Assembly: GCF_030063305.1 (NCBI RefSeq)
Contig: NZ_JASISV010000002.1
Coordinates: 806,001-870,000 of the forward strand
Reading direction: 5' to 3'
Source of the DNA: Salinibacterium sp. G-O1
GTDB taxonomy: Bacteria; Actinomycetota; Actinomycetes; Actinomycetales; Microbacteriaceae
Length of the DNA stretch: 64,000 bases
The notes beneath the pieces were generated by a model, which searched no databases, was not told the DNA's origin, and saw nothing but the letters and a program-made list of their open reading frames with translations. This document shows positions 4,605 through 40,891 of this stretch, piece after piece. Within the stretch, counting starts at the first letter, position 1. Each line of letters begins with the position of its first letter. The position numbers and the translations under genes are program-made.

Positions 4605-5990
4605 ATGTCTTTCGAGCCAGACGAATACCGAAAAGCCCTCGACCGCGCACACAGTCACGCTCTCGAGTGGCTGGATTCGGTTCCCACCCGCCCGGTCAGG
4701 CCCTCGGCAACGGCTGACGAACTCGATTTCGGCATGGCGCTCCCCGACGGACCGACGGATGCCGCCGAGGTCATCGATGAGCTGGTTCGGAAGGCCGAGC
4801 CTGGGCTCATGGCCATCCCCTCCGGCAAGTTCTTCGGCTGGGTGATGGGCGGCACCCTGCCGGCCGCGCTTGCCGCGGACTGGATGGTCAGCGCCTGGGA
4901 CCAGAACTCGGGGCTGCGCTACGCCACCCCCGCGGCCGCCGCGATCGAGGAGGCGGCCGGGGCCTGGCTCCTCGATCTTCTGCACCTGCCGCCCACGGCA
5001 GCCGTCGGGTTTGCGACCGGAGGCACCACCGCGAACATGATCGGCCTGGGTGCGGGTCGCGGCGATGTGCTGCACAAGGTCGGCTGGGACGTGAACACTC
5101 GCGGCCTGCAGGGTGCCCCCACGATCACCGTGCTCGCCGGCGCCGAGGTGCACGCCTCGGTGGAACTGGCGCTGCGCTACCTCGGGCTCGGCATGCCGCA
5201 GCTCGTCGAGTCAGATGCGCAGGGTCGCATCCGCCCGGATCAGCTGGCCCTCGCGCTCGCCGAGATCGACGGCCCCGTGATGGTCGCTCTCCAGGCCGGC
5301 AACCTGCACTCCGGCGCGTTTGACCCCATCGGCGAATGCGTCGACATCGCTCACGAAAACAGTGCCTGGGTGCACGTGGATGGCGCATTCGGCCTGTGGG
5401 CGGCGGCCAGTCCGCGCTGGGCCGCCGAACTCGAGGGACTCGCCGGTGCCGACTCGTGGGCGACCGATGCGCACAAGACCCTGAACGTTCCCTACGACTG
5501 CGGCGTCGCGATCGTCGCTGACCACAACGCTGTGCGCACCGCGTTCGGCGCTCACACGAGCTACCTGATCCAGTCCGATGACGGCCCGCCCGACCCGTTC
5601 GAGCTGGTACCCGAGATGTCACGCCGCGGCCGCGGGATCCCCGTGTGGGCGGCCATCCGGTCACTCGGGCGAACCGGTGTGACGGAGTTGGTGGAAGGGC
5701 TCGCCGAGAACGCTCGCGCGCTTGCGCTGGCGTTGAGCGAGCTCGACGACGTCGAGGTTCTCAACGACGTCGTCTTCACCCAGGTGTGCCTGTCCTTCGG
5801 CAGCGACGAACGCACCCGGGCGGTTACGCAGGCACTCATCGCCGATGGCGAGGTGTGGATGTCCGGCTCCCGCTGGGCCGACCGTGACGTCTTGCGCATC
5901 TCGGTCAGCAACTGGTCAACGGATGCCGCAGACGTAGCGACCTCGGTCGCGGCCGTTCGGCGCGCGATGGAGCGAGCCGCGGCATCCTGA
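4605..5990 (+). CDS. PLP-dependent decarboxylase family protein (group II, aspartate/aromatic amino acid decarboxylase-like)
   Basis: A 461-residue fold-type I PLP enzyme of the group II decarboxylase family. The cofactor lysine is Lys291 in the DAHKTLNVPYD motif; the upstream HVDGAFGLW contains the Asp that contacts the pyridine nitrogen, and FATGGTTANMIGL near residues 136-148 binds the phosphate. The length and C-terminal small domain (from about 345) are complete. Family members decarboxylate amino acids or act as related lyases; the substrate cannot be read from the sequence. It follows a promoter box directly and is not in an obvious operon. Confidence 0.82.
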   Translation: MSFEPDEYRKALDRAHSHALEWLDSVPTRPVRPSATADELDFGMALPDGPTDAAEVIDELVRKAEPGLMAIPSGKFFGWVMGGTLPAALAADWMVSAWDQNSGLRYATPAAAAIEEAAGAWLLDLLHLPPTAAVGFATGGTTANMIGLGAGRGDVLHKVGWDVNTRGLQGAPTITVLAGAEVHASVELALRYLGLGMPQLVESDAQGRIRPDQLALALAEIDGPVMVALQAGNLHSGAFDPIGECVDIAHENSAWVHVDGAFGLWAAASPRWAAELEGLAGADSWATDAHKTLNVPYDCGVAIVADHNAVRTAFGAHTSYLIQSDDGPPDPFELVPEMSRRGRGIPVWAAIRSLGRTGVTELVEGLAENARALALALSELDDVEVLNDVVFTQVCLSFGSDERTRAVTQALIADGEVWMSGSRWADRDVLRISVSNWSTDAADVATSVAAVRRAMERAAAS

Positions 5991-6000
5991 TCCCGCAGAG

Positions 6001-6537
6001 TTAGTCGTTCTTGGCGCTCGACTTGCCGTTGCTTTTGTCTTTCACCTTGTTGTGATTGAGGTTTCCGAAACCGTTGTCCTGGCCCGAATTACCGACACCG
6101 TTGTTCTGGCCGAGGTTGCCCATGCCGTCGCCGACGCCATTGCCCTTGCCCTTGACCTGGCCGTCGTCCTCGGAATTTTCCTCGGCGTCGTCCTCAGCCT
6201 TGGTCGTGTCCTTGGTCTTGTCCTTGACCTTGGTCTTGTCCTTGCCCTTGGCCTTGGCCTTGGCCTTGACTTCGGTCTTGTCCTTCGGTTTCGCCGTGTC
6301 CTCGGCTTCGGCGTCCGTGGCGTCGTTAACGTCAGCATCGTCGGTGTTGGAGACAACCTGATCGAACACATCCTGTGTTCCTCCGGGAAGCAGCCCGGCC
6401 GTGCCCGCGCCAACTACTGCAGCAGCACCGGAGGCAGCACCCAGAACAATTGCTGCGGTGACGCCCAGTCCGAGCGCCACGCCGATGGCTCGCCTGCGCA
6501 CCACGGCGTTCTGTTGTGAATCAGTCGTAGCTTTCAT
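6001..6537 (-). CDS. secreted low-complexity Lys/Asp-rich protein, unknown function
   Basis: A 178-residue protein with an N-terminal membrane/signal segment at about residues 17-42 after an RRR cluster. A mature region from about 68 onward is built from short KDKTK/KAKAK repeats, then an acidic DDAEENSEDD stretch and a GNG/GQNNGxGN tail ending KNDKSK-like. At DNA level the lysine-rich part is a run of near-repeats of CCTTGG/CCTTGT at 6190-6300. Export and an extended, wall-permeating or polyionic role are inferences. No catalytic motif is visible. Repeat slippage could vary its length between strains. Confidence 0.6.
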   Translation of the reverse strand: MKATTDSQQNAVVRRRAIGVALGLGVTAAIVLGAASGAAAVVGAGTAGLLPGGTQDVFDQVVSNTDDADVNDATDAEAEDTAKPKDKTEVKAKAKAKGKDKTKVKDKTKDTTKAEDDAEENSEDDGQVKGKGNGVGDGMGNLGQNNGVGNSGQDNGFGNLNHNKVKDKSNGKSSAKND

Positions 6538-6691: not shown

Positions 6692-6727
6692 ATGATCGCA
6701 TGGATCTTCGCGGCTGGGAGTGCCTGA
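6692..6727 (+). other. 11-codon mini-ORF with a perfect Shine-Dalgarno
   Basis: AAAGGAGGTC sits immediately before ATG 6692, which opens MIAWIFAAGSA and stops at TGA 6725-6727. The hydrophobic start resembles the first residues of GlsB/YeaQ-type small membrane proteins, so it may be a truncated remnant; it could also be chance. It lies 11 nt before the stop of the OsmC gene on the other strand. Confidence 0.25.
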
Positions 6728-6738
6728 GACCCGCTGGG

Positions 6739-7302
6739 TCAGTGCGCTTTCGTCACCGTCACGCTGACCGGAGTCGGGTTCGCGAACAGGTCGAGCACGG
6801 GGCAGTGTGCGTCAACGGCGGCGCGCAGCTCCTGGTAACGGTCGTCGGACTCTGGTCCGGTGATCGTGATCGCGAGGCGCACACCCGTGAAGCCTGCGCG
6901 CACAGTCTCGTCGATGCCAAACAGTCTGGCCGCGTCGAGGTCACCCTCGGCGTCGACCGAGATCTCGTCGACCTGAATGCCGAGCGCGTGGGCGTACAGA
7001 CGGTAGACCACGACCTGGCATGAGATGAGCGCGCCCAGCGCAATCTCGACCGGGCTCGCAGCGAGGTCATCCCCCGCCAATGCTGCAGGCTCATCGATAG
7101 CGAAGGTGTGCTTCCCGGCAGTGACGGTCGTAAGCACGGAACCCTCCCCGACGCCCTTCACCTTGTACGTCAGGTGTGCCGCGGTGCGGTTGGCTGCGAT
7201 GCGCTCACCCCAGGCGGTGCCTGCTTCAGTCAGGCGGGCGGCGCGTTCGCTCGCAGAATCGACAACGGAAGGGGCTTCGGTGAGTGTGTCAAGAAGAGTC
7301 AT
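6739..7302 (-). CDS. OsmC family protein (thiol peroxidase-like)
   Basis: A 187-residue OsmC/Ohr-type protein. The two redox cysteines are visible as Cys95 in ALISCQVVV and Cys167 in DAHCPVLD, the spacing expected for the family. Such proteins reduce organic or lipid hydroperoxides in the cytoplasm. The frame is open up to 7488, but the ATG at 7302 gives the family length and is preceded by a TACGGT box; the longer frame would run through the promoter of the divergent ABC operon. Regulation by an adjacent MarR/OhrR is not seen here. Confidence 0.85.
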   Translation of the reverse strand: MTLLDTLTEAPSVVDSASERAARLTEAGTAWGERIAANRTAAHLTYKVKGVGEGSVLTTVTAGKHTFAIDEPAALAGDDLAASPVEIALGALISCQVVVYRLYAHALGIQVDEISVDAEGDLDAARLFGIDETVRAGFTGVRLAITITGPESDDRYQELRAAVDAHCPVLDLFANPTPVSVTVTKAH

Positions 7303-7308
7303 GACGAG

Positions 7309-7314
7309 ACCGTA
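7309..7314 (-). promoter_or_regulatory. -10 box TACGGT of the OsmC gene
   Basis: TACGGT on the minus strand ends 6 nt before the ATG at 7302 and settles the choice of start. Confidence 0.5.
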
Positions 7315-7403
7315 CGTCGGATGCCCCGAGCGGTGTCGTTCGTGACGTAACCGGGCGACGCACTGCGTAATGGGCGACACCTGCGGCTGACGGCACTCTC
7401 GAT

Positions 7404-7409
7404 TAGGCT
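7404..7409 (+). promoter_or_regulatory. -10 box TAGGCT of the ABC transporter operon
   Basis: TAGGCT ends 7 nt before the ATG at 7417, in the leaderless position; it faces the OsmC promoter about 90 nt away. Confidence 0.5.
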
Positions 7410-7416
7410 CGGCGTC

Positions 7417-8358
7417 ATGACGGTTGCTCAACAAGTGGAGGGTGGCATCGTCGTCGAACACGTCCGCAGGTCGTTCGGCGAGGTGCACGCGGTGCGGGAC
7501 GCGAGCTTCACGGCCCTGCCGGGCACCGTTACCGGGCTCATCGGCCCAAACGGCTCGGGCAAGACGACGCTCATGCTCATGCTGGCGTCACTGCTGCAGC
7601 CGGAGGGCGGGAGCATCCGGATCGCAGGATTCGACCCCATGGATGCCACGGCAGAAGTGCGCTCACGCATGGGCTGGATGCCCGATGTTCTCGGCTCGTG
7701 GGCGAACCTGAGCGTGCGCAGCACCCTCGAATACGCCGCGCGGATGTACGGAATGGACAGGTCAACGGCCTCGGCACGCGCCGAGGACCTTGTGCAGCTC
7801 GTCGACCTGGCAGATCTTGCCGCGAGCCCCACCCGCGTGCTGTCCCGGGGGCAGAAGCAGAAGCTGAGCCTCGCGCGGGCTCTCATCCACGATCCCGAGG
7901 TGCTGCTGCTCGACGAGCCGGCATCCGGGCTCGATCCGGGCGCGCGCACGCAACTGCGGCTGCTCGTGCGCAGGTTTGCCGCTGAAGGCAAAACGATCCT
8001 CGTCTCGAGCCATGTGCTCACCGAACTCGATGAGATGGCGGACGGTGTCGTCTACATCGACGGCGGGGTGACGGCCTCCGAGGAGGCTGTCGCGCGCAGC
8101 CGGGCCAGCGCGCGCCCCTGGCGCATCCGGTCGTCAGATGGAGAGGCTCTGCGTAGTGCGCTCATGTCGGCGGGGATCGCAAGCGCCGAGATCACCGCCG
8201 ACCGCAAAGACCTGCTCGTTCCGCTTTCGGGTGAGGGTGCCGCCGCCACGCTACTTGCGCACCTCATCGGATCCGGGGTGCCCATCAGCGCCTTTGCACC
8301 CGCGGTCGGCGACCTCGAGCACACCTTCCTGGATCTGAGCAGCGGAGATCAGTCATGA
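7417..8358 (+). CDS. ABC transporter ATP-binding protein
   Basis: A 313-residue ATPase subunit. Walker A is residues 43-51 (GPNGSGKTT), the signature is LSRGQ at 142-146, and Walker B LLLDEP is at 163-168 with the D-loop just after. The switch histidine is in VSSHVLTE. A C-terminal ~85-residue domain after the ATPase core is typical of CcmA/DrrA/NatA-type exporters. It drives the permease encoded next, with which it overlaps by 4 nt (ATGA), indicating translational coupling. Substrate unknown; drug, lipid or ion export are all possible. Confidence 0.9.
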   Translation: MTVAQQVEGGIVVEHVRRSFGEVHAVRDASFTALPGTVTGLIGPNGSGKTTLMLMLASLLQPEGGSIRIAGFDPMDATAEVRSRMGWMPDVLGSWANLSVRSTLEYAARMYGMDRSTASARAEDLVQLVDLADLAASPTRVLSRGQKQKLSLARALIHDPEVLLLDEPASGLDPGARTQLRLLVRRFAAEGKTILVSSHVLTELDEMADGVVYIDGGVTASEEAVARSRASARPWRIRSSDGEALRSALMSAGIASAEITADRKDLLVPLSGEGAAATLLAHLIGSGVPISAFAPAVGDLEHTFLDLSSGDQS

Positions 8359-9404
8359 GCGCCTTCTTCTCGGGACTCTGGGTGATTCTCACCCTCGAAC
8401 TCCGCCAGCGGGTACGCACCGCCAGCTGGTACGTGCTCATCGGGGTGTTCGTCGCTCTCATCGCCATCGTGACAGTCGTCGTGTCGGTTGCCCTCCGCGG
8501 CTTCGGAGCGGACGACCTCGGCGGGGCGGCGATCTACTCCACGATCATCTACTTCGTGTTGCTGTTGGGAACCCTGGTGGCACCGGCACTCAGCGGCAAC
8601 GCCATCAACGGCGACCGCGATGCTGGCACCCTCGCGACCACTCAGGTGACGCTCATCACCACCTGGCAACTGATCATCGGCAAGTTTCTCGCGGCGTGGG
8701 TCACCGCACTCGCGTTTCTCGCGGCGGCCGTGCCCTTCCTGATCTACGCGTCGGTCGTCGGGCGACTCAGTGCTGCGGCCATCACGGTGTCGATCCTGAT
8801 CCTGGCAATCGAGCTGGGAGTGGTTGCCGCCATCGGTGTTGGCCTGTCCGGGCTCGTCGCGCGGCCACTGTTCTCCGTCGTGTTGAGCTACCTCGCCGTC
8901 GCCGCCCTGAGCATCGGCACCCTCATCGCCTTCTCGCTCGGCGGCCTTGCCGTGCAGACCGAGGTCTCGAACGTGTCGAGCTACGGCACCGATTACAACA
9001 GCGCCGGCAATGCGATCACGTGCTCGGCGCCAGAAACCTACACCTATCGTGCGCCCCGATTCGACCTGTTCTGGGGAGTCCTAGCGGCAAACCCCTACGT
9101 GGTGCTCGCCGATGCGGTGCCGTCAAGCTTCGACCGAAACGGCAATCCGACTGACCTGTTCGGACAGATCAAGTCCGGCGTTCGATCGGCACAAATTGCG
9201 CCGGAAACCCTGGTTGTCTTCAACGAATGCACAAACACGTTCCCGCAAACACCGTCGGCGCGCGACGTCATCGACTCGACCACCCCCGGTTGGTTCGTGG
9301 GGCTGACCATCCATCTCATCCTCGCCGTCGGCGCCCTGGTTGGCGCGTGGGCGCGCATCCGGACGCCCGCGGCGCGACTGGGTCGCGGCAGTCGGATCGC
9401 CTAG
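8355..9404 (+). CDS. ABC transporter permease (ABC-2 type)
   Basis: A 349-residue membrane subunit with about six helices: near 25-48, 60-85, 105-132, 140-165, 172-200 and one before the C-terminus at about 315-335. A large extracytoplasmic loop (about 205-310) with two or three cysteines lies before the last helix. The start overlaps the ATPase stop. The stop shares CTAG (9401-9404) with the convergent oxidoreductase gene. It forms an ABC exporter with the preceding ATPase; the transported compound is unknown. Confidence 0.85.
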   Translation: MSAFFSGLWVILTLELRQRVRTASWYVLIGVFVALIAIVTVVVSVALRGFGADDLGGAAIYSTIIYFVLLLGTLVAPALSGNAINGDRDAGTLATTQVTLITTWQLIIGKFLAAWVTALAFLAAAVPFLIYASVVGRLSAAAITVSILILAIELGVVAAIGVGLSGLVARPLFSVVLSYLAVAALSIGTLIAFSLGGLAVQTEVSNVSSYGTDYNSAGNAITCSAPETYTYRAPRFDLFWGVLAANPYVVLADAVPSSFDRNGNPTDLFGQIKSGVRSAQIAPETLVVFNECTNTFPQTPSARDVIDSTTPGWFVGLTIHLILAVGALVGAWARIRTPAARLGRGSRIA

Positions 9405-10393
9405 GGACTGACCACCGCGATCACGATCTTGCCGCGATGCTCTGCCGCGCCGAAACGCGCCACAGCGAGTGGGGTCTCGGCGAGCGGGTACCCCCGGTCG
9501 ATGCGCGGCGCGAGAACGCCGGACTCGGCGAGGGCGGCAACCTCGGCGGTGTTCTTGTTGGCCTTCAGCCAGAGCATCCTGAGCTGTCTGCCGGTGACCT
9601 TGCTGATGAGGCGGCCCCAGATCGCGAGGCCAAGCAGACTGGCCGTCGTCGCGCCCACCGTCGCGTAAACGCCGCCGGGGGCGAGGGCCCGCGGCAGGCT
9701 GAACGGCGAGCGGGTCAGCCGCGTGTCGACGATCACGTCGAACCGTTCGCCGGTGCGCGTGAAGTCGACGGCGCGGTAGTCCAGCGTGCGCGCAAAGCCC
9801 ACCTCGCGCAGGAATTCCTGCTTGGATGCGTCGTCAACACCGACGATGTCGCGCACACCATGGTGGGCGGCCAGTTGGGCGACCAGCACGCCGACGCCTC
9901 CCCCGGCGCCGTTCACCAGCAGCCGATGCTCCGGCCGGAGTTGGCCGACATCGAACAGGGACTGCATGGCGAGGTTGCCGGCGTGCGGAAGCGCGGCGGC
10001 ATCGAGGTACGACAGGGAGTCTGGCATCCGGGTGAAGGCATCCTCGGACGTGCTCAGGTACTCGCCGAACCCGCCGTTGCCGTGCTCGGACAGGTCACCG
10101 AACACCCGGTCGCCGCGGCTGAACCGCGTAACGCCCTGGCCGACGTCGACGACCTCGCCCGCGACATCCGCTCCCAGGATGCGCCCGCGGGGCCCGCGCG
10201 TGCCGCCAAAGAGTCGCACGAAGAACGGTTTGCCCTGAATGAGCGCCCAGTCCGCGTCGTTGACACCCGTCGCGTGCACCCGCACCAGCACCTCGCCAGC
10301 CTGTGGTTTCGGGCGGGGAACCGTGCGCAGCTCGAGGCTGCCGGTCTTTCCGTATCTGGTCTGCACGATGGCGCGCATGGTGGCGGTCGACAT
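9401..10393 (-). CDS. NAD(P)-dependent alcohol dehydrogenase / quinone oxidoreductase-like protein (MDR family)
   Basis: A 330-residue medium-chain dehydrogenase/reductase. The GroES-like N-terminal domain carries GEVLVRVHATGVNDADW; the Rossmann motif NGAGGGVGVLVAQLA lies near the middle. The structural-zinc cysteine cluster is absent, placing it with zinc-independent quinone reductase-type enzymes. It likely reduces quinones or enones with NADPH. The open frame continues to 10510, but the ATG at 10393 follows a TAGGCT box by 7 nt and matches family length. Confidence 0.85.
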   Translation of the reverse strand: MSTATMRAIVQTRYGKTGSLELRTVPRPKPQAGEVLVRVHATGVNDADWALIQGKPFFVRLFGGTRGPRGRILGADVAGEVVDVGQGVTRFSRGDRVFGDLSEHGNGGFGEYLSTSEDAFTRMPDSLSYLDAAALPHAGNLAMQSLFDVGQLRPEHRLLVNGAGGGVGVLVAQLAAHHGVRDIVGVDDASKQEFLREVGFARTLDYRAVDFTRTGERFDVIVDTRLTRSPFSLPRALAPGGVYATVGATTASLLGLAIWGRLISKVTGRQLRMLWLKANKNTAEVAALAESGVLAPRIDRGYPLAETPLAVARFGAAEHRGKIVIAVVSP

Positions 10394-10400
10394 GAGTAGA

Positions 10401-10406
10401 AGCCTA
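10401..10406 (-). promoter_or_regulatory. -10 box TAGGCT of the oxidoreductase gene
   Basis: On the minus strand TAGGCT ends 7 nt before the ATG at 10393; leaderless arrangement. Confidence 0.45.
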
Positions 10407-10442
10407 GCGAGGGGCTCCGATGGGGCGCCCTTGTTGTGACGA

Positions 10443-10468
10443 ACAACCCACGCACAACGTTGGGTTGT
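10443..10468. promoter_or_regulatory. inverted repeat in the oxidoreductase/sigma-factor divergent region
   Basis: Perfect 8-bp arms ACAACCCA (10443-10450) and TGGGTTGT (10461-10468) flank a 10-nt spacer. The site lies between the oxidoreductase start (10393) and the sigma factor start (10500). Its place and symmetry fit an operator or regulator site; a hairpin is the alternative. Confidence 0.4.
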
Positions 10469-10499
10469 GATCCCTCGCCGCGGTGACCATGCTGGCCAC

Positions 10500-10982
10500 A
10501 TGGTCACCACCGACGCGTCGTTCGAGCGCGCCTACATCCAGTACCTGCCCACGGTGAGCGGCTACCTCTATCGACGCGTGCAGCGGCAGCACGTCGAAGA
10601 CCTTGCCGCGGATGTGTTCGCGATCGCCTGGCGCAAGCGGGCGTCCGTCGCCCAGGGCGAGGAACTGCCGTGGCTGTATCGGATCGCGGCCAACGTCGTG
10701 GCCAACCATCGCCGCAAGCAGGCCTCGGGCTTGGCACTTCTCGCTTCGCTGCGACCCGCCGACTCGGCGCCGTCGGCCGAAGAGATCGTTGCCGCCGACG
10801 CGACGCTCGCTGCGGCGTGGGGGCAGCTGCGTCCCGCCGAACGTGAGGTGCTCGCCCTCGCCCTCGTGGAAGACCTCGCCCCGGCCGAACTGGCGGTGGC
10901 TCTCGGAGTGAGCGTCAACGCCGCGACCATCCGGGTGCATCGGGCACGCGCCAAGCTGGCGCGCCTGCTCGCCGCAGAATAA
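10500..10982 (+). CDS. RNA polymerase sigma factor, ECF-like (sigma-70 regions 2 and 4)
   Basis: A 160-residue sigma factor. Region 2 spans about residues 8-75 (LPTVSGYLYRRV ... LAADVFAIAWRKR ... WLYRIAANVVANHRRK) and region 4 about 105-155 (LRPAEREVLALALVEDLAPAELA followed by the helix-turn-helix VSVNAATIRVHRARAKL). It recruits RNA polymerase to a special set of promoters. The ATG at 10500 fits family length; the GTG at 10467 would start inside the inverted repeat. The next gene, 49 nt downstream, codes for a membrane protein that may be its partner. Confidence 0.88.
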   Translation: MVTTDASFERAYIQYLPTVSGYLYRRVQRQHVEDLAADVFAIAWRKRASVAQGEELPWLYRIAANVVANHRRKQASGLALLASLRPADSAPSAEEIVAADATLAAAWGQLRPAEREVLALALVEDLAPAELAVALGVSVNAATIRVHRARAKLARLLAAE

Positions 10983-11031
10983 ATCTCGCAGCCGCGGTGA
11001 AAGATTCACGGGGTCACGACATATCCCCAGT

Positions 11032-12393
11032 ATGAGCACCAATCACGACGACCTTCGCAACCGACTCCGCAGCGGCCTCGATCGCGGAGCGGCCCCCGAG
11101 CTCTCCGCCGACCTCGTCAGCGGCGCCGGTGATCGCACCGCTCCCCGCCTCACCAACCCGGCTCGCGGGTTGCGCATCGCTGGTGCGTCCGCGGTCGCCG
11201 TGGCCGTTGTCACCGTGGGCGCTTTGGTGGTGGCGCCCAGTCTGACGCGCGCTCCGTTGTTCACCGCGGCAGGGGCATCCGCCGATACCGCGGCACTCGG
11301 TTCGCGCGACGCAATCTCAAGCGATCTCAGGATCGCGCCGTGGGTGGAATACCGCTACACCGCCGGGGCTTCGCTGTCGACCCAGGGCGGTTCGGGGCCG
11401 GTGTACCAGCTCGTTCTCGACACCGCAGACCCCGAGGCTCGCACCGCGGATCTCGCCACGACCCTCGGCGTCGACGGTGCCGTGTCCCAGGCCGACTACG
11501 CCGACCCTGCATACCCGACCTGGATTGTGGGCCCGCAGGACGGCTCGGCGGCGAACCTCACGTTCAGCGCCTTCGGCACCGGTGACTGGTGGTTCAACGA
11601 CCCGACCGTCGCCTCGATCTACATTTGCGACGAATCGGTGACCGTCGAGGATGCCGAAAGCTACGGATGCATGATGCCGACCGATGCTCCCGCGAACCTG
11701 GCGCCCACGGGCGAAACCGCGCGGTCGCTTGCACAGGCGCTGTTCGCATCCACCGGCTATGAAGCGGATGCCGCTCACATCGAGATCACCGCCGACACCT
11801 ACGGCACCAGCGCGAACGCCTACCTCACCGTCGACGGGATCCGGACCAGCCTCAACTGGAGTGCGTACTGGACGAACGCAGGCGGGCTCTCGTACGCGTA
11901 CGGCCACTCGGTGCACCCGGAAGCGCGCGGCACTTTCGACACCGTGTCGCCCACGGAGGCCGTGCAGCGCCTGGCGGACTACCGCTGGTACGGATCAGCC
12001 GGCCCCGAGTACCAGGGCGGCGCGATCGCGTACTCGGCGAGGGGTGCGGTCGATGATGTCGTCACCTTGGAAGAGTTGGGCGAGCCAACCGAGCCAGGCA
12101 TCGAGCCGAGCGCCGAGCCTTTGACCGATGTGCCTGTCGACCCGTCCACTGCCGCTCCCACCCCCGCTCCCGATGACTCGCTGCCACCGGTCGACGTTGA
12201 CCCCGACCTCGCGCCGACCCCCGAGGTCGTCGAGGTGACCGTGGACAACGCGGCCGCGACGCTGCTGCTCATGTGGGACGCCGACGGCAACGCCTGGCTC
12301 GTCCCCGGCTATGCCATGCAGGTGCCCGAGGGCTGGTGGAACGCGGTGGTCAGCCTCGTTGACGGCGTGATCGCCCTGCCGGAACTGCTGTAG
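11032..12393 (+). CDS. membrane-anchored protein paired with the sigma factor (possible anti-sigma or sensor), 453 residues
   Basis: The protein has a short cytoplasmic N-terminus (1-42, starting MSTNHDDLRNRLR), one membrane helix at about residues 43-66 and a large external domain rich in Trp, Tyr and Asp. A Pro/Thr/Glu-rich linker at about 340-405 precedes a compact C-terminal segment. This topology, downstream of an ECF-like sigma gene, fits a membrane anti-sigma factor or sensor, but no zinc-binding anti-sigma motif (HxxxCxxC) is present. The last 37 codons and stop are duplicated 2.5 kb downstream (14848-14961). I do not recognise the external domain. Confidence 0.75.
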   Translation: MSTNHDDLRNRLRSGLDRGAAPELSADLVSGAGDRTAPRLTNPARGLRIAGASAVAVAVVTVGALVVAPSLTRAPLFTAAGASADTAALGSRDAISSDLRIAPWVEYRYTAGASLSTQGGSGPVYQLVLDTADPEARTADLATTLGVDGAVSQADYADPAYPTWIVGPQDGSAANLTFSAFGTGDWWFNDPTVASIYICDESVTVEDAESYGCMMPTDAPANLAPTGETARSLAQALFASTGYEADAAHIEITADTYGTSANAYLTVDGIRTSLNWSAYWTNAGGLSYAYGHSVHPEARGTFDTVSPTEAVQRLADYRWYGSAGPEYQGGAIAYSARGAVDDVVTLEELGEPTEPGIEPSAEPLTDVPVDPSTAAPTPAPDDSLPPVDVDPDLAPTPEVVEVTVDNAAATLLLMWDADGNAWLVPGYAMQVPEGWWNAVVSLVDGVIALPELL

Positions 12394-12918: not shown

Positions 12919-13179
12919 ATGCGATCGGTCAACATGCATGACGCCAAGACTCACTTCTCTCGGCTGGTCGACGACGTCGCCGAGGGTGAGTCCGTCGTGA
13001 TTGCGAAAGCCGGCTCCCCCGTCGCCCGGTTGGTGCCCCTGGACGCGGAACCGAGCCGACCGCGCAGCCTCGTGGGGTTCCTAAGCGGACGGATCAGCGT
13101 CCCCGACGACTTCGACCGGATGGGTGAGGACGAACTCGCCGCACAATTCGAGGGCGCGGGCCCCGCGGCATCCCGGTGA
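12919..13179 (+). CDS. type II antitoxin, Phd/YefM family
   Basis: An 86-residue protein. The N-terminal VNMHDAKTHFSRLVDDVAEGE and VIAKAGSPVARLVPL are the typical Phd/YefM DNA-binding and dimerisation part; the C-terminal half (from about residue 50, with SVPDDFDRMGEDELAAQFEG) is the flexible toxin-binding tail. It neutralises the PIN toxin encoded next and should repress the operon through the palindrome upstream. An ATG at 12934 is an alternative start. The stop overlaps the toxin start by 4 nt (GTGA). Confidence 0.85.
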   Translation: MRSVNMHDAKTHFSRLVDDVAEGESVVIAKAGSPVARLVPLDAEPSRPRSLVGFLSGRISVPDDFDRMGEDELAAQFEGAGPAASR

Positions 13180-13562
13180 TCTACCTGCTCGACACCCAGC
13201 TCATCCTGTGGGCCGCGGCCGACTCTGATCGCTTGAGCGACACCGCGCGCGACCTGCTCACCGACGAAGCGAACGGGTTCATGTTCAGTTCGGCCGCGAT
13301 CTGGGAGATCACCATCAAGTCGACGCTGGGCCGGTCCGACTTCTCGGTGGATACCCGGCTCCTGCGCCGCGGACTGATGACCAATGGCGCACAAGAGCTC
13401 CCCATCACGAGCGAACACGCTCTCTCCGTCTCCGACCTCGCGCCATTGCACAAAGACCCGTTCGACCGAATCCAGATCGCGCAGGCGCGGGAGGAAGGGA
13501 TTGTGTTGCTTACGGGTGATGAGGTGGTGGCGGCTTATGGGGCTCCGGTGGAGTTGGTGTAG
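13176..13562 (+). CDS. type II toxin, PIN domain (VapC-like RNase)
   Basis: A 128-residue PIN-domain protein. The first metal-binding acid is Asp6 in YLLDTQLILWA, a conserved Glu lies in SSAAIWEITIKS (about residue 47) and the third acidic site is HKDPFDRIQIAQA (Asp about 96 and 100), followed by LLTGDE. These residues bind Mg2+ for tRNA or rRNA cleavage in the family. The GTG start overlaps the antitoxin stop. Pairing of a Phd-type antitoxin with a PIN toxin is common. The toxin looks intact. Confidence 0.85.
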   Translation: MIYLLDTQLILWAAADSDRLSDTARDLLTDEANGFMFSSAAIWEITIKSTLGRSDFSVDTRLLRRGLMTNGAQELPITSEHALSVSDLAPLHKDPFDRIQIAQAREEGIVLLTGDEVVAAYGAPVELV

Positions 13563-36872: not shown

Positions 36873-37556
36873 TTAACGCGAAAGGTCTGGATCGTATTGT
36901 TCCGGCTCGGGCGGCGGCGCCGGCACCAGTTCGGCGACGGAATCCGGCGAATCCGCGACCAGCGGGCTCACGTCGTCATCCCTGCGCTTTCGCCTGCCGG
37001 CGATGCTCGAGATCACGGTGTACACGGCGTAGGCGAAAAGCAGACCGGCAATGATCGGGGTGACCAGCGGACGCGTTTCGCCGTTCACCGCGTTGTTGAC
37101 GAATCCCAGATACGGGATCGCATACCAGAGGGTGCCTTTGACCTGGACTTCCATGATCGGCTTGGGGTCGGCGAGGTCGTTGTTGTCACCTTTGGTGATA
37201 AACGTCGTCTCACCCTCGAGACTGACGCTGCGTGTGATGACTCGGTGCGAGATGACGGCCGGGTTTCCGGACTTGATCTGGTAGGTCAGCACATCCCCCA
37301 CCTTGATTTCGTCGATGGGGGTCGGCTTGATCACGATCAGGGTGCCTGGCGGGAACTTCGGCGCCATGGAATTGGTCAGGACGGTCAGGGCGGAACCGCC
37401 CACGATCGCCGGCGCCGCAATCACGAGCACGGCAATAACCAACACCATCACCAGGAGCGCCCCACTGAGAGCCAGCCCTAGGTAGTGCAGCAGGCTTTTC
37501 TCTTTAGGGTCCCCCTCGACTGGCTCGCCTGTGCCACCGCCTTCGCGCGCCGCCAT
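36873..37556 (-). CDS. signal peptidase I, SipW/ER type
   Basis: A 227-residue membrane peptidase. A first helix at about 22-52 is followed by the catalytic Ser63 in LTNSMAPKFPPG; the second box has His104 (AVISHRVI) in place of the usual lysine, which marks the SipW/ER-type (S26B) signal peptidases. A second helix near 183-203 is followed by GRRKRRDDD. It should cleave the special signal peptides of the exported proteins encoded upstream. I start at the ATG 37556; the frame is open to 37604. It is the last gene of the cluster, 58 nt after the LAXTG protein gene. Confidence 0.9.
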   Translation of the reverse strand: MAAREGGGTGEPVEGDPKEKSLLHYLGLALSGALLVMVLVIAVLVIAAPAIVGGSALTVLTNSMAPKFPPGTLIVIKPTPIDEIKVGDVLTYQIKSGNPAVISHRVITRSVSLEGETTFITKGDNNDLADPKPIMEVQVKGTLWYAIPYLGFVNNAVNGETRPLVTPIIAGLLFAYAVYTVISSIAGRRKRRDDDVSPLVADSPDSVAELVPAPPPEPEQYDPDLSR

Positions 37557-37614
37557 GCGACTCCCCCATCCGATCATCGAGTCCGGTTGAAGAATAGTGC
37601 ACAATGCTCAGGTG

Positions 37615-38376
37615 TCAGCGGTCGACTGTCCGGCGTCGACGACGGCCCAGAATCACGAATAGCCAGCCGACCCCCAGCGCTATCGCAGCCGTGATGAACG
37701 CCGGATAGGCCAGGGTTCCTCCCGTGTACGCGAGCCCGTCCGACCCAGCGCGCTGGTCCAGGCCTGACGTGGTGGTCTCCGTGCTCGGGATGATGACAGC
37801 ATCGACCGAGCAGCCGTTGGGGGCAATCTCGAGGCCAGGGTCAGACAGAGCGACGGCGAGGTCGACGTGACCGGCCGCATCCTGCGCCTGGTTCCCTGTG
37901 AGCATCGGGGACACACGTAGCGTCAGGGAAACTGAAACGATCTGACCCTGTGTCATGACCCTGTCGGGTACGACAGGCTGACAGGCCGTCAACGCGCTGA
38001 ACCGTGTCGGCTGAAGTCCCTTGCCTGCGGCGTCGGCGCCTTCTATCGTCATAGCTTCGTCGAGCACGGTGTCGTCGGTGGATGCATTGGTGAGTGAGAG
38101 CTGCACGAAGGTTGGGTTTGAGCGCAGGGATCGGATGAGCAGATTCGCAGTCGCAACGTCTCCCGGCACATAGCGCACGGCGCTTGCGAACAGGAATGAC
38201 GGCGGAGTTGTCGACCAGGTCGCGCCGCCATCGCGGCTGTACTCGGCCGTGGGTGTGGCTGCGGTCGCCGCCAGTGGCGCGCCCAGACTCAGCATGAGGC
38301 TTGCGGTGATCGCGATCGCCCCCGCGACCGCCGCTGGTCGTGTCATCGTCTTCGCGAATCGGATCACGGCGTGCAC
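37615..38376 (-). CDS. LAXTG-anchored cell-surface protein of the SipW cluster
   Basis: A 253-residue secreted protein: signal peptide about 1-39 (cleavage after ATA), a beta-rich mature domain from EYSRDGGATWS, and a C-terminal sorting signal LAYTG at 215-219, then a hydrophobic helix and GRRRRRTVDR. LAXTG is the motif used by class E sortases of high-GC Gram-positives, so wall attachment is likely; no sortase is in the window. GTG start overlaps the previous gene by 13 nt. The mature domain is not recognised. Confidence 0.75.
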   Translation of the reverse strand: MHAVIRFAKTMTRPAAVAGAIAITASLMLSLGAPLAATAATPTAEYSRDGGATWSTTPPSFLFASAVRYVPGDVATANLLIRSLRSNPTFVQLSLTNASTDDTVLDEAMTIEGADAAGKGLQPTRFSALTACQPVVPDRVMTQGQIVSVSLTLRVSPMLTGNQAQDAAGHVDLAVALSDPGLEIAPNGCSVDAVIIPSTETTTSGLDQRAGSDGLAYTGGTLAYPAFITAAIALGVGWLFVILGRRRRRTVDR

Positions 38377-39311
38377 GATGTTGACTCCGGTCGCTCGTTG
38401 CCGTGCCAGAACGGGCCCTGGTAGTAGATGGGCGTGGTTGACGCCTGGCTCGTGCCGTACGGGTTTCCGGTGTAAACAATCCGAACGTTGGAGTCCGCCG
38501 AGATGTTGACGTCACCACCGATGACTCCCACCACAACGCTGCGTGGGTCGGTGAGCGTCCGCGTCAGTGAGGGAGTCGTGGCGGCGGGCGCGCCCACGGT
38601 GTCAACGAACACCTGATAACCCGTAGCGCCCACGACCGCCGGCCAGGTCAGTGTGGAGAAGCCCTCCTTTTGACCCTTTTGATCCGTGGTCACGCATGTT
38701 GGTGTCGGCGCGGGGACCGAATACACGGATTGCGTTGTGGATGTCGCAGCGCTGGTGACCCAGCTACTGGCTCCCACACGGCCCGTGATGGTGAAGGTGG
38801 CGACCACGGACTGCCCCTGCATGGCAGACATCGGGCCGACCAGTTGGGTTGCCGCGCACAGAGTAACGGCCGAGTTGGGGCTGGGGTTGGCCGCGCCAGA
38901 TGGCATGGCCGGAGGCGAGGCGACGGTGCCCGGTATGTTGAGCGGCGTCGTGCCGCAGTTCGACGAACCTGTCGTCCAGAGCCACAGCGTCAGATTGGCG
39001 GCAAGAGTGGCGTTGGTATTGGTCACGCCAATGGAGAACGTCATCGGGGCAGACCCCGTGTTCGACACCGTGATGGGTTTGATGACGATCGGACTCGATT
39101 GGGCCGTGGTGAACATGTACGTGGTGTTGAGCGTCGAGAAGTTGCCTGCCGTCATGCTGAATGTTGCAGCGGAGGCAGTCGTGCTCGCGGTGGCCGCCGC
39201 AGACCAGTAGGCGTTAGCCGCCACGGCGCCAGAACCGAGCATGAAGATGGCCAACGACGCGGCGCAGGCCGCCTTGATCCCGGGGATGCGTGCTAATCGT
39301 GCGAATATCAC
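38364..39311 (-). CDS. SipW-type exported surface protein, 315 residues
   Basis: The N-terminus has a positively charged start, a hydrophobic helix (about 14-33) and AANAYWSAAATASTTAS, the A-Y-W-S cleavage region typical of SipW-dependent proteins. The mature part is Thr/Ser/Ala-rich and beta-like; from about residue 210 (TCVTTDQKGQ) a fibronectin-III-like segment TLTWPAVVGATGYQVFVD follows. GTG start shares GTGA with the upstream stop. Two Cys pairs may form disulfides. It likely forms or decorates a surface structure; this is inference from signal type and context. Confidence 0.72.
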   Translation of the reverse strand: MIFARLARIPGIKAACAASLAIFMLGSGAVAANAYWSAAATASTTASAATFSMTAGNFSTLNTTYMFTTAQSSPIVIKPITVSNTGSAPMTFSIGVTNTNATLAANLTLWLWTTGSSNCGTTPLNIPGTVASPPAMPSGAANPSPNSAVTLCAATQLVGPMSAMQGQSVVATFTITGRVGASSWVTSAATSTTQSVYSVPAPTPTCVTTDQKGQKEGFSTLTWPAVVGATGYQVFVDTVGAPAATTPSLTRTLTDPRSVVVGVIGGDVNISADSNVRIVYTGNPYGTSQASTTPIYYQGPFWHGNERPESTSCTP

Positions 39312-39895
39312 GACTGGACTCCTGTCAGATTCACGGAGACTGAGGTAGTAGCCCCCGCCGCGCTGGCGGAGGCGCTCGAGAGCATTGAGACCACGAGGCA
39401 GAGCGGCACAGTCGAGGCCGGAGTGGTCGTGCTGTCGTAGGTGGTTGCCGCCACGGCTGTGACGCCGAGCGATCCTGCCGCGACAGCGGTTCCCGGTGCT
39501 GCGCAGGTTCCTGGTGCGACCTTGATGTCGAGACCATTGACGCCCTGACCCACAATCGAGCTGACGCTGAGGGCGAGGTCTGCCGAGCCTGACGCCGACA
39601 CGGTGAAGTCAGCGGTCTTGGTCACTCCCGGGTACAGGCCCGAGAGGGCCGCTGCGCCGCTGGTGATAACCAGGCTGGCGCTGCCGCTTTTGATGGTTGT
39701 CGACGCTCCCCCCGCACTTCCTGCCGGGATCGTCTGGGCCGAGTTGAGGTAAGCGTAGGTTCCTCCGGCTGCAAGCACCGAGAGTGAGATTGCGACGGTG
39801 ACGGTGACCATCGACTTGAGAATGTTCGAAAAACTGAAGAGAGACCGACGACGCTTCGTCACGGTGACGCTGGGCGTCTGTGTGAGTCGAGGCAT
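39308..39895 (-). CDS. SipW-type exported protein, 195 residues
   Basis: The protein starts with a long basic n-region (VTKRRRSLFSFSNILK), a hydrophobic helix at about 29-48 and the cleavage-site region GGTYAYLNSAQT. Mature residues are Ala/Gly/Ser/Thr-rich strands with one predicted disulfide (GTCAAPGT and PLCLVV). It resembles TasA/camelysin-like SipW substrates in signal and size but not in clear sequence motifs. The stop overlaps the next gene (GTGA). It is 123 nt after the 211-residue gene of the same kind. Confidence 0.72.
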   Translation of the reverse strand: MPRLTQTPSVTVTKRRRSLFSFSNILKSMVTVTVAISLSVLAAGGTYAYLNSAQTIPAGSAGGASTTIKSGSASLVITSGAAALSGLYPGVTKTADFTVSASGSADLALSVSSIVGQGVNGLDIKVAPGTCAAPGTAVAAGSLGVTAVAATTYDSTTTPASTVPLCLVVSMLSSASASAAGATTSVSVNLTGVQS

Positions 39896-40018
39896 GGCGG
39901 TCTCCGCTTTCGTGTGATCTGTCCCTGTTGGACGTGGCCTGTCGTGTCGTGGTGTGAAGTCGTGCTGGTCCCGCGGTGGGCGTGTCGAGATTCGGGTTCG
40001 ACACGCCCACTGGTCGGG

Positions 40019-40654
40019 CTACTGCTGGTCGACGGTGACGGTCAGACCTGCGAGGTTGACCGAGCCGAGCATTGACGCTTTTTCATTCAGGACAGCGGTG
40101 GAGTTGGGTCCGGCGGTGGTGACCGTGGCGGCGTCCTTCGGGTAGGTGATCGTCACCGTGACGGTAACCGGGCTGTTCGTGATACCGGCTGTGCCTGGTG
40201 TGATCGAGTAAGTTCCCGTGGAGCCGATGGCGGCGATGCCGGTACCCGAAGCGGCGATCGTTGCGGTCTTCGTCAGGTACGCAGCGAGCGCGACGTCTGC
40301 TGCTCCGGTCGTTGCCGCGGTGATCGAACCGGCACCGAGCGCGAGGGTCGCGGTCAGGTTGTTACCGGTTGCGGTGACGTTGACGGTCTTCGTGAGCGTG
40401 AACTTGTCACCGGGCGATGCGACGAATGAGGAGATGGTGGAGACGGTCGTGGCAGTTCCGGTGCCGTTCTTCTGTACCGTCCAGCCGTCGGTGCTCGGTG
40501 CCGTCGCCGGCGCCGCGACCTTCAGGTTTCCAGCGGTGATTGTTCCGCCGGTGATGCCGACCGAGTCGTTCCAGTAAGCGAACGTTCCAGCGCCACCCAT
40601 GAGGAGTGCTACGCCGGCAGCCGTTGCGACTGCACCCTTGATGAGCTTGTTCAT
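40019..40654 (-). CDS. alternate-type signal peptide exported protein (RER_14450-like), 211 residues
   Basis: The start MNKLIKGAVATAAGVALLM then GGAGTFAYWNDSV is the alternate signal peptide described for actinobacterial SipW-associated proteins, with cleavage near GTFA-YWN. The mature chain is a Thr/Ala-rich beta protein with ITGGTITAGNLKV shortly after the signal, a phrase shared by this family. The ATG 40654 is chosen over the long open frame because AAAGGA lies just upstream. It is the first gene of the cluster and the best candidate for an abundant fibre subunit. Confidence 0.8.
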   Translation of the reverse strand: MNKLIKGAVATAAGVALLMGGAGTFAYWNDSVGITGGTITAGNLKVAAPATAPSTDGWTVQKNGTGTATTVSTISSFVASPGDKFTLTKTVNVTATGNNLTATLALGAGSITAATTGAADVALAAYLTKTATIAASGTGIAAIGSTGTYSITPGTAGITNSPVTVTVTITYPKDAATVTTAGPNSTAVLNEKASMLGSVNLAGLTVTVDQQ

Positions 40655-40809: not shown

Positions 40810-40891
40810 CCCACAAGAAATATATCGTGTGGGTTCTAGGGGGGACAAGCTTTGTACCCCACCCAGAACGGGGGACAAAGTATGTCCCCCC
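40810..40891. promoter_or_regulatory. three palindromes between the surface-protein cluster and glgE
   Basis: Within the 324-bp divergent region: CCCACA/TGTGGG arms at 40810-40815 and 40828-40833; an imperfect palindrome 40839-40860 starting GGGGGGACAAG and ending TACCCC; and perfect arms GGGGGACA (40870-40877) and TGTCCCCC (40883-40890) around 5 nt. They lie 155-237 nt before the 211-residue gene and 88-169 nt before glgE. They look like operator sites; the regulator is unknown. The rest of the gap holds no gene. Confidence 0.5.

Follow-up and report, generated by a model that had tools for sequence, protein, structure and literature searches.

A five-gene SipW-type locus of Salinibacterium sp. 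G-O1 as a candidate actinobacterial relative of TasA fibre operons

The window analysed here is a stretch of 64,000 nucleotides from Salinibacterium sp. G-O1 (Microbacteriaceae; contig NZ_JASISV010000002.1, positions 806,001 to 870,000 of the forward strand). Five minus-strand open reading frames (ORFs), transcribed in the order P1-P2-P3-P4-P5, occupy positions 36873-40654 of it and probably make an extracellular fibre, an actinobacterial version of the TasA/CalY/archaeal-bundling-pilus superfamily. In the proposed mechanism, the peptidase P5 would remove the signals of P1-P3 and free their N termini, each of which would act as a donor strand filling the groove of the next subunit. P1 would self-assemble by donor-strand exchange into the shaft and would be made in excess because an RNA hairpin stops or protects its transcript, while P3 would be the adhesive, probably end, subunit with an exchangeable head. 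P4 is without a SipW-type N terminus and so without a donor strand; it would be an acceptor-only base that takes up the final strand and tethers the fibre to the membrane or, in some lineages, to the wall via class E sortase. The unit would be switched by a pair of palindromic operators at the promoter. The individual subunit roles are tentative and could well prove otherwise. The full scheme, in which a donor-strand fibre is completed with neither chaperone nor usher nor pilus sortase, P1 is a SipW-released, self-assembling shaft, P3 carries a lectin or FnIII head and P4 is a donor-strand-less base of the same fold, is best regarded as doubtful.

The initial annotation of this DNA had described five minus-strand genes, three with SipW-type signal peptides, one encoding a LAXTG-anchored protein and one a SipW-type peptidase with Ser63/His104, joined by overlaps in the middle three and splitting glgX/glgP from glgE/glgB. 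This description is borne out. All five ORFs are found at their positions, P2 and P3 overlap by 4 bp, P3 and P4 by 13 bp, and P1 and P2 are separated by a gap of 123 bp. Its neighbours are glgX, ybaK and glgP in one direction and glgE and glgB in the other (gene names assigned by judgement; ybaK-like).

The five genes form a real, conserved unit. The search for relatives covered 60 genomes, including that of the strain itself, and found a P5 match in 37 and a P4 match in 14; in 13 of these 14 genomes no more than about 1.3 kb separates the P4 match from the P5 match. The loci compared comprised 20 stretches of 19-19.5 kb, 19 loci of 7.2-12.6 kb and the window, giving 39 distinct places (L004 and L133 are the same). 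The complete five-gene set is present in 15 of them: the window, S. xinjiangense (L130), L131, a Glaciihabitans metagenome-assembled genome (MAG; L003), L132, L134, L135 and L137-L144. Gene order is P1-P2-P3-P4-P5 in all of these except L130, where P3 and P4 are swapped, and a second copy of P3 is found in L139 and L140. Furthermore, five Arthrobacter loci (L016, L018-L021) contain all five kinds, ordered P1-P2-P5-P4-P3-like. The family lists come from a lax iterated search with overlapping P1-P4 families, members being assigned by gene position and by eye, and the P3-like genes of Arthrobacter rest on the same search. Such conservation as a gene set indicates that the five ORFs are not a chance string. 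A comparison of gene order had been suggested with the annotation, which would have been called into question by homologues that never occur together; the opposite is the case. The cluster also occurs in named, cultured relatives, for example S. xinjiangense CGMCC 1.5381. L136 (genome G029, 6707-11389) is a variant locus in which two copies of P1 surround the peptidase gene, P3 has a ricin-type lectin, and a sigma-factor-like gene (by eye) follows directly downstream.

P5 (36873-37556, 227 amino acids; an alternative, longer TTG start at 37604 is possible) scores 88.3 bits against TIGR02228, whose cut-off is 51.85, and is thus a member of the endoplasmic reticulum (ER)/SipW-type signal peptidase I family. 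Aligned with three SipW-like proteins of Bacilli, its residues Ser63, His104, Asp124 and Asp130 show no variation; its score against the Bacillus SipW equivalog NF046067 lies below the cut-off (79.1 bits vs 190), and its gene is the sole P5 match within its genome at E up to 0.001. The signal of P1 reaches 32.8 bits against TIGR04088 (cut-off 19). No NCBIfam model matched P2 or P3 of the window; among four P2 orthologues compared with TIGR04088, two pass (25.3 and 19.2 bits), one is below (16.2) and one has no match. Because the curated models do not match P3, its SipW type rests on the motif ...A/YWSAA... and the conservation of that motif. A dedicated peptidase gene adjoining SipW-type substrates, which defines a SipW-dependent matrix locus, is in place. 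The second mature residue is bulky in P1-P3 and aromatic in P1 and P3. An aromatic residue at this position is reported to be cut inefficiently by ordinary signal peptidase I, and for TasA itself the block was traced to the Trp before the cleavage site (PMC10269814). The aromatic residues of P1 and P3 fit a need for P5 without proving it. Elsewhere, L159 (G002, 8360-9013) has a 217-amino-acid signal-peptidase-like gene between glgX and glgP, with 24% identity to P5 over 176 residues and no adjoining match to P1-P4.

The link to TasA is carried by P2 (39308-39895, 195 amino acids), a small SipW-type exported protein of TasA/CalY-like kind and the proposed minor subunit or adaptor. With signal peptides removed, its profile was searched against 177,635 PDB sequences, and the top two matches are both TasA (5of1, E 0.0022; 8aur, E 0.0024), followed by two Ig-like proteins, CEP192 (0.013) and hydrocephalus-inducing protein (0.11), and by the archaeal AbpX (0.72 and 0.85). 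Profile-profile alignment with hhalign connected P2 at 78% to nine TasA/CalY-like proteins of Bacilli, which had been chosen as genes adjoining SipW-like genes and not by model (alignment A7), and 0 of 100 shuffles was as good. The corresponding values are 95% for P4-P2, 78-83% for P3-P2, 73% for P1-P2 and 12% for P1-TasA, each with 0 of 100 column shuffles, and all five of these links also outscore the reversed alignment. The alignments used have 15 rows for P2 (A2), 15 of 25 rows for P3 (A3), and 23 (A4, one start set by hand) and 10 (A6) for P4. As P1, P3 and P4 connect by profile to P2, it is P2 that holds the family together: P3 and P4 reach TasA essentially via P2, and P1 does so via P2 and directly over 23 N-terminal columns.

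Judged by its profile, P2 is a recognisable, diverged relative of TasA. It is outside the curated TasA/CalY families PF12389 and NF046066, its orthologues reaching at most 22.8 against the NF046066 cut-off of 450, and two orthologues match TIGR04090 (BsaA) weakly at 18.5 and 13.9 bits (cut-off 60). In the wider sense, detectable profile homology places the proteins in the TasA superfamily, P2 directly. The parallel with TapA-SipW-TasA loci drawn in the initial annotation is upheld by the first rank of TasA in PDB, the links of P1, P3 and P4 to P2 and the SipW type of the peptidase. Its remark that the subunits are different was too strong, given the relationship of P2 to TasA and of the other proteins to P2.

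P1 (40019-40654, 211 amino acids), the proposed major fibre subunit, is a member of TIGR04089 (exp_by_SipW_III; 107.7 bits, cut-off 60), a family present in 35 of 198 genomes of the order and above the cut-off in 24. Mature P1 is predicted to begin at Tyr27 (YWND...; sequence YWNDSVGITGGTI). Across 39 aligned sequences its invariant columns are W2, G16, W32, P55-G56, G71 and Q184; mature position 2 is Trp in 39/39, position 13 is Ile in at least 90%, and an AGxL turn comes after it. P3 also has Trp at mature position 2, P2 has Leu there in 13 of 15 sequences, with Met and Trp once each, and the nine TasA/CalY-like proteins of Bacilli have Phe. The mature chains of P2 and P3 in the window are predicted to start YLNS and YWSA. 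Mature starts were located by patterns that matched 39/39 P1, 31/35 P2, 25/29 P3 and 22/25 P4 sequences, and the Trp counts of P1 and P3 are partly so by construction, since the search pattern demands Trp at this position; the four dropped P3 rows also have Trp and failed on a neighbouring residue. In TasA the mature chain is reported to begin with the donor strand, which spans 11 residues (28-38); F29, I32 and F39 make its contacts (PMC9674648). The hhalign match of P1 to TasA (12% probability) covers the N-terminal stretch only, and in the AlphaFold2 (AF2) model of the mature chain (mean predicted local distance difference test score, pLDDT, 73) the protein is strand-rich with residues 1-16 free of secondary structure. 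P1 has a TasA-like N-terminal donor-strand signature.

P3 (38364-39311, 315 amino acids) is SipW-type exported and combines an N-terminal domain linked to P2 with a C-terminal FnIII-like domain; it is the proposed adhesive subunit. The P3 family profile matches FnIII domains in PDB. P3 of the window taken alone has no Pfam match, and two proteins of its kind have only sub-threshold fn3 matches. A ricin-type lectin stands at the C-terminal place of P3 in L130, L131, L013, L005 and L136; in two of these, L013 and L005, fn3 is present too. The C-terminal domain switches between FnIII-like and ricin-type lectin, a pattern suggestive of an adhesive head under changing selection. At L130 (8286-10297), the swap of P3 and P4 in S. 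xinjiangense coincides with a ricin-type lectin on P3, a local rearrangement that changed the head.

P4 (37615-38376, 253 amino acids), the proposed anchored base, is a Sec-exported beta-sandwich protein with LAYTG at 37720-37734, a C-terminal membrane helix and an Arg-rich tail. Its signal is of the ordinary Sec type (by eye) with no TIGR04088 match, and it is not a TapA-type accessory protein, having no SipW-type signal and no aromatic donor-strand motif at the mature start. Its profile gave one PDB match, DpHF18 (E 0.091). Against NF058582 (LAVTG anchor) it scores 24.2 bits, just below the cut-off of 27 and so outside that family. The genome encodes a single sortase, of class E (223 bits, cut-off 160); it lies on another contig than the cluster, beside kinase-like, pabA-like and rhomboid-like genes (by eye). 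With LAYTG, helix, basic tail and this sortase, P4 of the window has the features of a class E sortase substrate, and its attachment is predicted. A hydrophobic C-terminal 19-mer, the membrane helix, followed by a basic tail occurs in 25/25 P4 proteins and an [LVI][AP]xTG motif before the helix in 7/25, and sortase presence cannot account for this difference because 60/60 relatives have one. What is conserved in P4 is, by these counts, membrane or wall retention and not the sortase, and sortase anchoring as a defining trait was rejected. Wall anchoring by class E sortase, which the initial annotation considered new for such a system, is accordingly weakened: it is predicted for P4 of the window, with its LAYTG and sole sortase of class E, and is not the conserved feature.

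The sortase motif could also be read as the centre of the system, which would then be an adhesin system: P4, attached to the wall by class E sortase, would be its chief product and P1-P3 would play accessory parts. The LAYTG of P4 and the single class E sortase of the genome speak for such an adhesin. It is nevertheless improbable, given a motif in 7/25 P4 proteins despite sortases in all 60 relatives, several Arthrobacter loci that keep P1, P2 and P5 with no P4 seen (e.g., L006, whose contig ends soon after, and L015), and the absence of a class C (pilus) sortase from the locus. With no such sortase in the locus and no LPXTG anchor on P1-P3, the cluster likewise does not qualify as a sortase-polymerised pilus.

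Two candidate regulatory elements accompany the genes, the first being an RNA hairpin (39976-40010, minus strand) with a 13-bp perfect stem, 8 nt after the P1 stop, which is proposed as a stoichiometry element favouring P1. With its surroundings it folds at -32.2 kcal/mol (z -5.5 vs 200 dinucleotide shuffles). A hairpin is found there or shortly after P1 in 15/15 clusters, with z from -1.3 to -6.2 vs simple shuffles; among seven further loci, L008 and L015 have a perfect stem of just 5 bp. In an alignment of ten second-group sequences (8 distinct), pairing holds in 99% of the cells, a share reached by 1 of 500 shuffles, and two pairs contain four cells with changes on both sides, which 3 of 500 shuffles match. 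The stems of the window and S. xinjiangense differ by one compensated pair. A stable element after the first gene fits the expectation for a P1 needed in excess.

The second is a pair of 21-bp palindromes upstream of P1, proposed as the operator. Palindrome 1 (40840-40860, GGGGTACAAAGCTTGTCCCCC read on the minus strand) has 0 mismatches and overlaps the -35-like TTGTCC of a promoter-like TTGTCC-18-TATATT before P1 (40819-40848, minus strand), and palindrome 2 (40870-40890, GGGGGACATACTTTGTCCCCC read on the minus strand) is its twin. Two such promoter-like elements were found in the region vs 0.7 expected in shuffles, which is weak alone; the same hexamers and spacing recur in G017 (L130). The palindrome pair constitutes the only sites with at most 1 mismatch in the 3.14-Mb genome, and two palindromes (at most 2 mismatches) arise in 0 of 100 window shuffles. 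Half-sites occur in the 420 bp upstream of P1 in 14/15 clusters, wherever these are located, at 28 per 6.3 kb vs 4 per 318 kb of the same loci; L131 has imperfect palindrome forms only. In the 11 genomes with the cluster elsewhere than among glycogen genes, seven have an operator match (at most 1 mismatch) before P1, and G005, G010, G012 and G016 have none at this spacing. No dedicated adjacent regulator was recognised in the four non-glycogen clusters listed.

A scan of the genus (at most 1 mismatch) gave an operator-like match in 18 of 27 genomes. An operator private to the fibre operon was therefore rejected: this holds in the window's genome, and the scan found like elements at glgP in congeners without a P4 match. 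Four congeners without a P4 match have operator-promoter-like arrays just past the glgP 3' end, before genes for membrane peptides of 37-50 amino acids (L160 of G013, 7810-8530; L161 of G004, 7450-8000; L162 of G020, 7590-8140; L163 of G015, 8050-8330), and one of these peptides ends ...SPFFIAAIGMTIALVVIAAVVALLS. These membrane-peptide genes and the fibre operon may form one regulon. Scattered matches in G022, G023, G024 and G009 came with no fibre genes seen, G002 C221 and G020 C2:774306 being left out of this comparison. In L166 (G024, 5012-6168), a gene whose secreted product has LAATG, a membrane helix and an Arg-rich tail is preceded, at a distance of about 90 bp, by a one-mismatch operator copy; it may be a further surface gene in that regulon.

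Several results weigh against the fibre reading. Among the signals, none of five P3 orthologues matched TIGR04088, leaving the P3 signal without support from a curated model. Among the profiles, P1 and P3 have no direct link (10 of 100 shuffles as good), the P1 profile gave no PDB match up to E = 1, and the links P3-TasA (1%), P3-P4 (2%), P1-P4 (9%) and P4-TasA (10-16%) are weak, even if 0 of 100 shuffles reach them. The hairpin has z weaker than -2 in 5/15 clusters, the number of pairs changing on both sides and of pair types is no better than in shuffles (187/500 and 246/500), and it is without a T-run, so that a role as terminator is only putative. Across the genus, operator-like elements also stand away from fibre genes.

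The structure models belong on the same side. A Foldseek search with the P1 model found no match at E up to 0.001, TasA (8aur) ranking third at E 0.1; superposed on 8aur the model has a Z of 5.4 over 145 residues (5.6 Å), tied with the Pap, CFA/I and Csu pilins and with a PorA domain (5.8). For the strand-rich P4 model (AF2, pLDDT 77), Foldseek ranks unrelated enzymes (AvmM, GH123) at the top, AbpA in fifth place and TasA in fiftieth, and Z is 10.7 for a PorA domain, 8.4 for AbpA, 7.7 for TasA and 7.5 for the Sulfolobus thread. Since the PorA domain leads the P4 ranking, the likeness is to the general Ig-like or pilin class, and the matches of both models fit that class without proving the family. 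Structure prediction for TasA-like folds, proposed earlier as a check, thus gave a divided answer for P1 and P4: both are strand-rich with a Z of 5.4 and 7.7 to TasA, and neither places TasA above unrelated beta-sandwiches.

Sub-threshold matches of P1 (19.0) and P2 (15.4) to Pfam M73 (PF12389, cut-off 22.5) are further points of this kind, and through the name of that model they would favour camelysin-type peptidases, P1 and P2 being secreted metalloproteases. This is very improbable. The P1 match covers residues 5-48 only, which is essentially signal and donor strand, the invariant or near-invariant columns of P1 include no His, Cys, Asp or Glu, and CalY is described as a filament subunit (PMC13082335).

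Finally, the fibre and its donor-strand exchange are inferred, and the products could instead be a secreted matrix or coat, in which P1-P3 are exported by SipW and stay monomers, oligomers or a surface layer bound via P4, with no donor-strand fibres. The weak TasA link of P1 itself, the Ala/Thr/Ser-rich appearance of P1 and P2 (by eye) and the reported stability of TasA as a soluble monomer as well (PMC9674648) are all compatible with such a coat. The N-terminal donor-strand signature, the separate anchor and adhesive subunits and the hairpin after P1, which is expected for a major subunit, argue for a fibre, and a mere coat is considered unlikely.

The position of the cluster among glycogen genes had led the initial annotation to suggest that surface matrix and glycogen metabolism share control. 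A functional tie of the cluster to glycogen or alpha-glucan metabolism, through control shared with glgE/glgP, could draw on the operator's position in the intergenic region that P1 and the divergent glgE share, on the 4/15 clusters at the same glg site and on the like element flanking glgP in the four congeners without a P4 match. The four clusters between glgP and glgE belong to two genomes of the window's genus, one genome of another genus of the family and the Glaciihabitans MAG. The other 11 lie elsewhere, and among the four with flanks listed they are between spermidine-synthase-like and SprT-like genes (rpoB-like in three). All 11 genomes with the cluster elsewhere are without glgE, so that the glycogen position is one of at least two homes; 14 of the 27 genomes of the genus have glgE and no P4 match, and two have both. 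The split between glgE and cluster location is clean and probably reflects clade structure. Coupling to glycogen as a general feature was therefore rejected, and the half-sites before P1 in 14/15 clusters regardless of place agree with this; a functional tie is quite improbable. Local co-control of the divergent glgE is conceivable at the four glycogen sites, as the operator sits in the shared intergenic region, and the glycogen position appears to be a chance local placement and not part of the function. A phage origin was likewise rejected, PHROGs giving nothing for P1-P4 and one weak match of P5 to a repressor (E 0.0033). Further away in the window, two overlapping ORFs at 12919-13562 (86 and 128 amino acids) resemble a Phd-type antitoxin and a PIN-domain toxin (by eye).

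SipW-dependent filaments are known for TasA/TapA (PMC9674648, PMC10151520). It is mostly in Bacillus species that TasA fibres have been characterised; related systems exist in archaea, and TasA-like systems are reported to be phylogenetically widespread (PMC10903470). The locus shares with tapA-sipW-tasA of B. subtilis a dedicated SipW-type peptidase, a TasA-like subunit (P2; P1 and P3 by linkage) with a donor-strand signature and a small operon. It differs in having three SipW-type subunits instead of two, the modular adhesin P3 and its own hairpin and operator. TapA is described as donating a strand, whereas P4 is the opposite, C-terminally anchored with an ordinary signal and no donor strand. 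In B. cereus, TasA-CalY-CapP is a sortase-independent tripartite filament system (PMC13082335), and the sipW-tasA-calY-capP genes similarly provide several TasA-type subunits and an accessory protein retained at the cell wall. However, CapP is reported to be SipW-processed with a disordered wall-binding C domain; P4 uses Sec export and has a membrane helix and, in some cases, a sortase motif. BsaA of C. perfringens is a SipW-dependent, polymer-forming matrix protein that makes filaments (PMC7395162). The BsaA/SipW system (TIGR04090) has in common with the present locus such a matrix protein and the weak P2-orthologue matches, which are far below the cut-off of 60; the abstract of PMC7395162 mentions neither an anchor gene nor an adhesin gene.

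Archaeal bundling pili (AbpA/AbpX) and Sulfolobus threads resemble the locus through AbpX among the PDB matches of P2 and through the Z of the P4 model to AbpA and the thread, but this is a weak likeness within the general beta-sandwich class and in another domain of life. Chaperone-usher and sortase-built pili have the same division of labour into shaft, adhesin and base, and the P1 and P4 models resemble such pilins, whereas no chaperone, usher or class C sortase is present in the locus. The description of TIGR04089, of which P1 is a member, gives the signal type only, with no function or partner set. No description of such an actinobacterial locus was found among the papers listed from the open-access literature, judged by title and abstract start, which is no proof of absence.

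The fixing of TasA fibres to the cell and what they bind have so far been less clear. Here, one small operon has candidates for every expected job, namely a peptidase, a shaft, an adhesive subunit with an exchangeable head and an anchored base. As these candidates lie in one small operon that is also present in cultured relatives, anchoring, polarity and stoichiometry could be tested by single gene removals. If the scheme is true, polarity and anchoring would be solved in reverse of Bacillus TapA, and the RNA hairpin that follows the shaft gene would set the stoichiometry. TIGR04089 proteins, described so far by their signal peptide alone, would gain a suggested function.

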